Part shown: positions 26,012-39,000 of the stretch, in pieces
Position numbering within the stretch: position 1 is the stretch's first letter
Layout: each line of letters opens with the position of its first letter
Origin: Oscillospiraceae bacterium
GTDB taxonomy: Bacteria > Bacillota > Clostridia > UMGS1810
Direction of reading: 5' to 3'
DNA length: 64,000 bases
Assembly (NCBI GenBank): GCA_015068975.1
Contig: SVJM01000003.1
Location: 67,437 to 131,436 of the forward strand
Notes under the pieces: model-generated
Databases searched by the model: none
Told to the model about the DNA's origin: nothing
What the model saw: the letters and a program-made list of their open reading frames with translations, nothing else
Position numbers and translations under genes: made by a program

Positions 26012-27236
26012 AAAAATACTTTCAATTATCCTCTCTTTGTTAATGCTTGTGCCATTATGTGCCTGTGAGGACAGAGTAGACACCGATGACTATGCATATG
26101 TAATTGCAATCGGTGTGGATGAGGGCGAGGACAAGGATATAAAAATCACCTTTTCCTTTGCAAACTCCATAAAAATCGGCGGAGGTTCATCAGGGGGAGG
26201 CGGTGGAGAAGAAGGTGAAGAAGGAAATCTTATAAACTTCACCATAAGCTCCACCAGTATGTTTACAGGTCTTGACATCTTAAGAAATAATATTTCAAAA
26301 AAGGTAAACCTTTCTCATGTAAAGCTGATTGTGTTTTCAAAGGACATTGCAAAGAAAGGGCTTTCCGAATACACTGACGGATTTATAAGAGAATTTAAAA
26401 TCCGCCCCATTACCTTTATGGCGGTTGCAGAGAAATCCAGCGAAGATTACCTTAATGCACTGTCGCCACTTATGGCTGTAAATCCTGAAAAATATATAAA
26501 AAATCTCTTTTCCAGAGGAAAAAGCGACTTTGGTGCAAAGATAGATATATATACCTTCTATATAAATTCTCAGGTAGATGACAAAGACGTGGTGCTTCCT
26601 ATGGTGGGAGTTATAAGCGAAAAAGAGGACAAAAATGAAGTGACAAATGAAAAAATCAAATCAGATTCCATGGATATAAGCGCCATCCCCTTAAAGAGCA
26701 AAAACAAGGCAACCATTATCGGCAATGCCATATTTAAAGGAGACAAAATGGTGGATGCAGGAGAAAACTCCGAACAGCTTTTCTTAAATATCTTAAGAGG
26801 AGTGGCAGGCACATTTGACTATACTGTAGGAAAGGATTCCCCTGATCAGATTGTGCTTACAATTATTCAGAGACACAAGCCCAAGGTATATGCTGATGTA
26901 TCAGGTGCCTCACCAAAAATATCTACAGTTATCCCCCTTGAATGTGAAATCACATCTCTCGGAGAGGGGAAACTATCTGAAAAGGATTATAAAAAAATCC
27001 AGAAGATGCTGTCAAGCGAGCTTGAGGCAGACCTTAAAAAATACTTTTATAAAATCAGCAGAGAGGCTGAATGTGATGCTGTAGGATACGGACGATATGC
27101 AAAGATGAGCTTTGATAACTGGGAAACTTGGAAAAATTATGACTGGCAAAAAAGAATCCCCTATATTCAGTATGATGTGAAGGTTCAGGGTGGGATATTA
27201 AAATTCGGTATAATTGACGAGGGGTATAAGCCATGA
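26004..27236 (+). CDS. Spore germination lipoprotein C subunit (GerC family)
   Basis: A 410-residue lipoprotein. The signal peptide ends in the lipobox LCAC, with the acylated cysteine at residue 21. After it are RVDTDDYAYVIAIGVDEGEDKDIKITFSFA, the GerC start motif, and a run SGGGGGEEGEEG which is an unusual low-complexity insertion. Domain 2-3 elements include LKSKNKATIIGNAIFKGDKMV (residues 230-250). It starts with GTG, with GGAGG 6 bases upstream, and overlaps gerB. It completes the receptor on the outer face of the inner spore membrane. Confidence 0.92.
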   Translation: MTKKILSIILSLLMLVPLCACEDRVDTDDYAYVIAIGVDEGEDKDIKITFSFANSIKIGGGSSGGGGGEEGEEGNLINFTISSTSMFTGLDILRNNISKKVNLSHVKLIVFSKDIAKKGLSEYTDGFIREFKIRPITFMAVAEKSSEDYLNALSPLMAVNPEKYIKNLFSRGKSDFGAKIDIYTFYINSQVDDKDVVLPMVGVISEKEDKNEVTNEKIKSDSMDISAIPLKSKNKATIIGNAIFKGDKMVDAGENSEQLFLNILRGVAGTFDYTVGKDSPDQIVLTIIQRHKPKVYADVSGASPKISTVIPLECEITSLGEGKLSEKDYKKIQKMLSSELEADLKKYFYKISREAECDAVGYGRYAKMSFDNWETWKNYDWQKRIPYIQYDVKVQGGILKFGIIDEGYKP

Positions 27237-37862: not shown

Positions 37863-37866
37863 CAAC

Positions 37867-38041
37867 GAAATACGCCTTTTTGGCGTGTGAAATATTGCTT
37901 CGCAATGTGAAATAGCTTCGCTATGAAATATTTGCTTCGCAAATGTTAAATGCGTATTTCATTTCACTGAAAGCGATAGCTTTCAATTTCATAATTTACG
38001 TATGTAAATTATTTCATATCGAGCGAAGTGAGATATTTCAC
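37867..38041. repeat. Array of short hairpins joined by GTGAAAT / ATTTCAC spacers
   Basis: Seven small stem-loops follow one another: ACGCC/GGCGT, ATTGC/GCAAT, ATAGC/GCTAT, ATTTGC/GCAAAT, then GAAAGC/GCTTTC, AATTTAC/GTAAATT and ATATC/GATAT. Most have TTC or GATA-like loops. In the first half they are separated by GTGAAAT or GAAAT words, in the second half by ATTTCAC or ATTTCAT, its complement. The first half is also enclosed by GAAATACGC (37867-37875) and GCGTATTTC (37952-37960). Nothing here codes for protein. A similar style of tiny hairpins recurs in 38300-38370. Confidence 0.75.
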
Positions 38042-38460: not shown

Positions 38461-38742
38461 TTATTTTATTGTATCTCTATATTCATACCCCTTTTTGAAA
38501 TTATAATACTGCAGATAAGCCTCAACACTTGACTCAGCTTCTTCATATTTTAAAAATGCCTTTTTTCCTTCATCGGTAAGAGCTCTCATCAGGTTTTCTA
38601 TACATTCTTCAAGATATTTTTTTCTTTCAATAAACTCGTCATCCTCAATTTTATCCAATTGAAATCCATGAAGTTTTCTGTAATACAGTTCTTCCATTTC
38701 ATTAAGAATCGGTATTCCTTTTTCATCAAGTTTTCTTCCCAT
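38461..38742 (-). CDS. Small alpha-helical protein of unknown function
   Basis: A 93-residue acidic-basic protein, predicted entirely helical (MGRKLDEKGIPILNEMEELYY and on) with no membrane segment. The C-terminal FLKYEEAESSVEAYLQYYNFKKGYEY resembles small Firmicutes proteins annotated DUF6809, from memory. GGTGATGAA precedes the ATG. Its stop codon touches the end of the tRNA-derived repeat, and a candidate structured RNA ends 29 bases upstream of its start. Confidence 0.6.
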   Translation of the reverse strand: MGRKLDEKGIPILNEMEELYYRKLHGFQLDKIEDDEFIERKKYLEECIENLMRALTDEGKKAFLKYEEAESSVEAYLQYYNFKKGYEYRDTIK

Positions 38743-38770
38743 TTCATCACCTTCAACTTATTTTTTTATT

Positions 38771-38797
38771 AAAAAAAGCGCCTACCGAAGCAGACGC
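38771..38797 (-). terminator. Terminator of the candidate RNA
   Basis: On the minus strand GCGTCTGC, loop TTCG, and GTAGGCGC form an 8-bp stem with two G-U pairs, followed by TTTTTTT. Confidence 0.8.
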
Positions 38798-38965
38798 TAA
38801 AAACGCAAACTCCGATAGTCGCCAAACTAATTTACGCATAATGAGCTATAATACTCGCATAAATGGAATTTGCATTTTTTACAAAACCAACATCACGAGT
38901 ATTCTCAAAAATGGCACAACTATACCATTAAAAATGCTCATTAATACGTATTAAATTAGTTTGGC
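38771..38965 (-). ncRNA. Candidate free-standing structured RNA of about 195 nt
   Basis: A complete transcription unit is visible on the minus strand: a TTGCTA-17-TATAAT promoter, a start near 38965, nested long-range helices and a terminator. P1 pairs the extreme 5' end (38952-38965) with 38821-38834, 14 perfect base pairs. P2 pairs GCTCATT (38936-38942) with AATGAGC (38840-38846). P3 pairs CGAGTAT (38896-38902) with ATACTCG (38851-38857). After P1 a short tail leads to GCGTCTGC-TTCG-GTAGGCGC and seven Ts. No open frame with a ribosome binding site lies inside. The layout recalls closed-stem regulatory RNAs such as 6S RNA, but I cannot assign a family. Confidence 0.55.
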
Positions 38966-38971
38966 ATAATT

Positions 38972-39000
38972 ATTATAACCTATTTTTTTGGAAATAGCAA
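38972..39000 (-). promoter_or_regulatory. Promoter of the candidate RNA
   Basis: On the minus strand TTGCTA, a 17-base spacer and TATAAT. Seven bases downstream of the -10 is exactly the first base of helix P1. Confidence 0.75.

Follow-up and report, generated by a model that had tools for sequence, protein, structure and literature searches.

A candidate class of cis-acting transcription attenuator RNA, possibly a riboswitch, in Clostridia

A structured RNA encoded in the genome of an Oscillospiraceae bacterium is very probably the 5′ leader of a DUF6809 gene and a cis-acting transcription attenuator. On comparison with its homologues, we rate it as a new, widespread class of such attenuators, which may possibly be a riboswitch. 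The RNA lies in a stretch of 64,000 nt that was analysed as a whole and is called the window here (assembly GCA_015068975.1, contig SVJM01000003.1, positions 67,437–131,436, forward strand); all coordinates below are those of the window.

The leader RNA and the gene behind it

The leader RNA is read from the minus strand and, as supported by the models R1 and R2 described below, spans 196 nt from the outer helix P1 to the end of its terminator (38771–38966). Its minimum free energy of −73 kcal/mol compares with −42.2 ± 3.7 kcal/mol for shuffled sequences (z = −8.25), none of 200 shuffles being as stable. P1 (GCCAAACTAATTT/AAATTAGTTTGGC) pairs 38952–38966 with 38820–38834, and its onset falls 5–6 nt past the −10 box of a TTGCTA-17-TATAAT promoter (38972–39000, minus strand); the end of the −10 box and the modelled RNA start are 5 nt apart. 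The domain closed by P1 holds two further strands, L (38880–38889) and M1 (AAAAATGCAAATTCC, 38865–38879), L being the local hairpin partner of M1. Another strand, M2 (GGAGTTTGCGTTTTT, 38799–38813), lies 3′ of P1, and an intrinsic terminator occupies 38771–38798, with its stem at 38798–38777, a TTCG loop and a T run. The initial annotation had read the promoter, the end-closing helix with its inner helices and the TTCG-loop terminator followed by Ts from the window sequence, and all of these elements stand.

Taken alone, the promoter match is unremarkable in this AT-rich kilobase, where five matches were found against 4.2 expected by chance. It is credible because TATAAT is conserved at a set distance from the RNA across homologues: with at most one mismatch it occurs within the 16 nt preceding the RNA in 185 of 209 homologues (66 in shuffles), and in 153 of those 185 the spacing is 5–6 nt. 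Terminator-like sites in the surrounding 1 kb numbered two, against 0.4 expected. A second promoter-like site, TTGACA-16-TATTAT (11/12), is found just upstream of the RNA's own promoter (39036–39009, minus strand). A Gut-1 RNA (RF01706, 70.5 bits; 37863–37934, plus strand) lies some 0.8 kb away from the leader, with tRNA-Met, tRNA-Glu and tRNA-Ser genes as its neighbours.

The initial annotation also held that no protein is encoded, which is correct if applied to the RNA alone but leaves out the 93-aa gene that it leads (38461–38742, minus strand); also missed were M1:M2, a pseudoknot of 15 bp, and the antiterminator, both discussed below. The gene has a ribosome-binding site (AAGGTG, 38748–38753), matches DUF6809 (PF20648) with 27.4 bits against a Pfam cut-off of 27, and was recovered again by a DUF6809 protein search of the window genome. 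Its ATG at 38742 is 28 nt beyond the terminator end, a spacing that appears to leave no space for another promoter, so that the gene would have to be read through the terminator. An intrinsic terminator is thus placed between promoter and led gene, with the gene start close behind.

This leader position recurs in the homologues. Among 199 distinct copies with enough flanking sequence, 104 have a start codon 12–30 nt past the terminator, compared with 3 of 190 copies on the divergent side, which served as control. An RBS-preceded ORF begins within 250 nt downstream of 177 of the 199 copies, and of 73 of the 190 on the divergent side; this simple RBS-plus-ORF rule will have placed some starts wrongly. 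By the same rule, a gene within 250 nt is absent for 22 copies (10 of 149 type 1 and 12 of 50 type 2). The copies at L061 and L073 (G011:C3) have a free-standing look, with a further terminator-like hairpin behind them and no close gene. At L237, L239, L240, L233 and L215, an inverted P1-like stretch (near TTGTCGCCAAACAA) lies 20–30 nt behind the copy; these are five of the 18 type 2 copies that have no gene close by, and such stretches are almost absent behind copies with one.

A protein search of the window genome for DUF6809 (E ≤ 0.001) returned four genes, and the RNA is directly upstream of all four; of two further copies in this genome, one lies ahead of a weaker DUF6809-like gene and the other ahead of a lipoprotein gene. 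Elsewhere in the class, the RNA is missing at 30 DUF6809 loci chosen for high Pfam scores, and it is therefore not tied to this gene family, which we rejected as a universal target. No mention of DUF6809 was found in the literature searched.

Distribution and conserved alternative pairings

A blastn search of 60 relatives found 34 places in 12 genomes, and 29 copies were aligned (A1) to build model R1. With R1, the RNA was identified in 89 of the 391 genomes sampled from the class and, counted by genus, in 54 of 222; within the window's order it occurs in 15 of 16 genomes, as many as 13 times in one genome, and the distinct homologues number 209 in total. R1 scores the window copy, which was in its training set, at 159.2 bits. 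Model R2, built without the window copy from type 2 copies alone (a shorter form of about 160 nt), gives it 70.9 bits (E 7.3e-13) and also recovers many type 1 copies; by these scores the type 2 form is related to type 1. A weak R1 match at 26650–26807 (18.3 bits, E 0.11) was judged to be chance. Some copies stand in tandem arrays of two to three complete leader units, 58–141 nt apart (L227, L236, L208, L088 and L045).

Outside the class, a 399-genome phylum sample of mostly high-quality genomes, passed through strict filters that could miss rare members, held no copy apart from those of the window's own genome. The named carrier records are Clostridia, nearly all of them metagenome-assembled genomes from animal gut samples; one isolate, Pumilibacter intestinalis (L153, strain CLA-AA-M10), carries a copy. 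Exact-pattern scans of viral contigs gave no matches, and no copy was found in the plasmids searched.

The RNA is abundant yet without a family. Rfam searches with the window RNA, at the gathering cut-off and at E ≤ 10, gave chance-level matches only (ncS54, rteR), and 15 related loci matched nothing other than one tRNA in one locus. No known riboswitch family in Rfam matched the RNA. A search of this kind had been proposed in the initial annotation; the lack of an assignment and the new class that it had entertained are both supported. Candidate leader RNAs from human microbiomes (PMC8040213) and surveys of GC-IGRs (PMC11109978, PMC8632094) include, in the accessible parts of these reports, RNAs that resemble ours in being structured and in immediately preceding genes; some of them have terminators. 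The text in those parts does not describe the window RNA, which may be listed unnamed in the supplements.

Five strands could be recognised across copies: L, M1, M2 and the two arms of the terminator, T5′ and T3′. M2 lies outside P1 and M1 inside, so that M1:M2 pairing would form a pseudoknot; in the window copy this duplex comprises 15 bp (−16.8 kcal/mol). Compensatory changes in the helices, named by the initial annotation as possible support, were found in the homologues. In type 2, P1 is paired in 97.7% of alignment cells, with two-sided changes at 10 of 13 pairs; in type 1 such changes occur at 9 of 13. M1:M2 is kept paired in 91.7–98.6% of cells, with two-sided changes at 5 of 13 pairs in type 2 and 2 of 15 in type 1; the covariation comes mostly from type 2 because type 1 copies hardly vary in either M1 or M2. 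L:M1, counted in type 2, has two-sided changes at only 2 of 9 pairs. Exchanging partners among type 2 copies weakened M1:M2 from −17.6 to −13.9 kcal/mol (p = 6e-14), whereas a control pairing showed no effect (p = 0.36); as the copies are related sequences, these and the following p-values overstate independence.

M2 has a second predicted partner. Together with the preceding linker (CNAUC), it can pair with the terminator 5′ arm and loop to form an antiterminator, which in the window copy is the minimum-energy fold of the 3′ end of the leader RNA. There, the 5′ arm consists of the linker CTATC and most of M2 (38802–38818), and the 3′ arm (38782–38798) overlaps the 5′ arm and loop of the terminator and also part of its 3′ arm. 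An antiterminator with at least eight pairs between the two parts is predicted for 138 of 159 type 1 and 37 of 50 type 2 copies, and type 1 medians are −17.0 kcal/mol for the antiterminator against −13.4 kcal/mol for the terminator. Partner exchange weakens the antiterminator in both types (p = 2e-7 in type 1, 4e-4 in type 2). In type 1, no exchange effect was seen when M2 was set against only the 5′ arm of the terminator; it emerged once the linker and the full terminator, including the loop, were taken into account. The variable linker base N can pair with its terminator partner in 123 of 139 copies, compared with 67 ± 6 in shuffles (0 of 5000 reaching this number). In the 29-copy alignment, antiterminator pairing holds in 95.1% of cells; 3 of its 14 pairs show two-sided changes, most of which fall at that single linker position.

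The antiterminator and the terminator are thus mutually exclusive, and antiterminator pairing is conserved through compensatory change. Both the model and the alignments are biased towards the structures from which they were built, a concern that the control pairing and slid-column controls partly answer. We conclude that comparison supports the leader position and the pairings of P1, M1:M2, antiterminator and terminator, and with them a putative relay of mutually exclusive helices running from L:M1 through M1:M2 and M2:terminator to the terminator. Conservation outside these alternative helices is limited to a short AAUA-like stretch behind P1 (about 80–90%).

A proposed switch and competing explanations

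In the mechanism that we propose, transcription would start at the first base of P1, and P1 with the inner helices would form a stable domain presenting M1, which could pair either with adjoining L or, across P1, with M2. In the OFF state, M1 would hold M2 in the pseudoknot, the terminator hairpin would be free to form, and transcription would stop at about 195 nt. In the ON state, M1 would be engaged with L, leaving M2 and the preceding linker to pair with the terminator 5′ arm and loop; no terminator would form, and RNA polymerase would read into the gene 28 nt downstream. In the window copy, OFF (M1:M2 plus terminator) is computed to lie 4.4 kcal/mol below ON (local hairpin plus antiterminator), and median differences in the same direction are 7.7 kcal/mol for type 1 and 6.9 for type 2, all before any pseudoknot penalty. 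Such nearly equal computed energies suggest that the two states are poised, as a switch would require. We infer that the states swap in vivo and that an effector, which could be a small molecule, a protein or an RNA, tips the balance between the folds and sets its direction.

Known attenuators offer partial parallels. The trp leader operates by a strand relay (1:2, 2:3, 3:4), and our RNA resembles trp-type attenuators in that mutually exclusive hairpins would choose between antiterminator and intrinsic terminator ahead of a gene. It differs in its middle pairing, a pseudoknot that spans a closed outer helix, and in lacking a conserved leader peptide: an RBS-preceded upstream ORF occurs in only 6 of 209 copies. 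Ribosome stalling is therefore unlikely, and we rejected a trp-type, ribosome-dependent attenuator reading control codons. In ZTP and fluoride riboswitches, a pseudoknot decides the terminator, and its formation is similarly coupled to the choice between terminator and antiterminator; however, our RNA has no Rfam match, and its pseudoknot would favour termination.

What would trigger the attenuator is a narrower question. A ligand-binding riboswitch is a special case of attenuation that differs in its trigger: the P1/P2/M1 domain would bind a small molecule or ion as an aptamer, with the attenuator serving as its expression platform. We regard such a riboswitch as a serious possibility, somewhat short of even odds. 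The compact multi-helix domain with a pseudoknot, the poised two-state platform, the tandem copies and the many unrelated downstream genes (a trait of riboswitches for signalling molecules) speak for it, although the alternative helices already explain nearly all strongly conserved bases and the led genes have no metabolic theme that would point to a ligand. That same scarcity of conserved bases outside the helices, together with the near-equal energies of both states and led genes rich in surface proteins, lipoproteins and accessory functions, would suit an attenuator without any effector, in which kinetic partitioning between the folds would keep surface and accessory genes at low or bet-hedged expression. 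We consider this unlikely, if worth keeping in view, as class-wide conservation of the large P1 domain exceeds what a constant-ratio terminator would need.

Two further explanations would dispense with attenuation. The initial annotation took a free-standing RNA to be the simplest reading, with a 6S-like regulatory RNA as one option; such an RNA would end at the terminator and act in trans. It would account for the RNA's own promoter and terminator and for copies without a downstream gene (L073, for example, and L061 by eye), but the start-codon spacing and the four recurrences before DUF6809 genes in one genome show no independence of the downstream gene, and a trans-acting RNA would not need a conserved antiterminator; we regard it as improbable. 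Its 6S version was rejected: with about 190 nt and paired ends the RNA resembles 6S RNA (RF00013), from which it differs by its leader position, pseudoknot and antiterminator, and the genome has a separate 6S gene (G000:C65:13449-13639), while RF00013 did not match the RNA's part of the window at E ≤ 10. More improbable still is a dispersed mobile or MITE-like repeat with the P1 inverted repeat as its ends. The many copies per genome, inverted ends and tandem arrays would fit; yet the promoter and terminator outside P1 are also conserved, orientation and spacing to genes are fixed, and P1 covaries pair by pair.

Led proteins and a putative regulon

Among 150 led proteins, BspA-type LRR proteins (21) and copper amine oxidase N-domains (7) are joined by AbrB/MazE-type (6), DUF6809 (6) and AMP-binding (4) proteins, as well as by zinc ribbons, CHAP, dockerin, SLH and NlpC/P60 domains. 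The led set holds many lipoproteins and small proteins without assigned function, and few of its members match defence models. This mixture would suit a cell-wide signal more than metabolic feedback. Tentatively, and with slightly less confidence than an even chance would warrant, we suggest a new riboswitch class, confined in the genomes sampled to one class of Clostridia, that responds to a cell-wide signal and exerts coordinated control via the pseudoknot-driven helix relay. Its putative regulon would be large and would comprise LRR proteins of the cell surface, lipoproteins, small proteins of unknown function and AbrB-like regulators.

An attenuator of this kind would offer a mechanistic handle on regulation in mostly uncultured bacteria and would place many functionally uncharacterised genes in a single regulon; should there be a ligand, identifying it would reveal which signal these bacteria detect in the gut. 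A single short template would suffice for a direct test of the proposed relay, whose choice between terminator and antiterminator depends on a pseudoknot spanning a closed domain.

One copy was seen on a phage-labelled, unverified human-gut scaffold (L275, MT835503.1), at positions 337–531. It precedes a 382-aa ORF (575–1723) that is adenine-methylase-like, a type seen once among the led genes.
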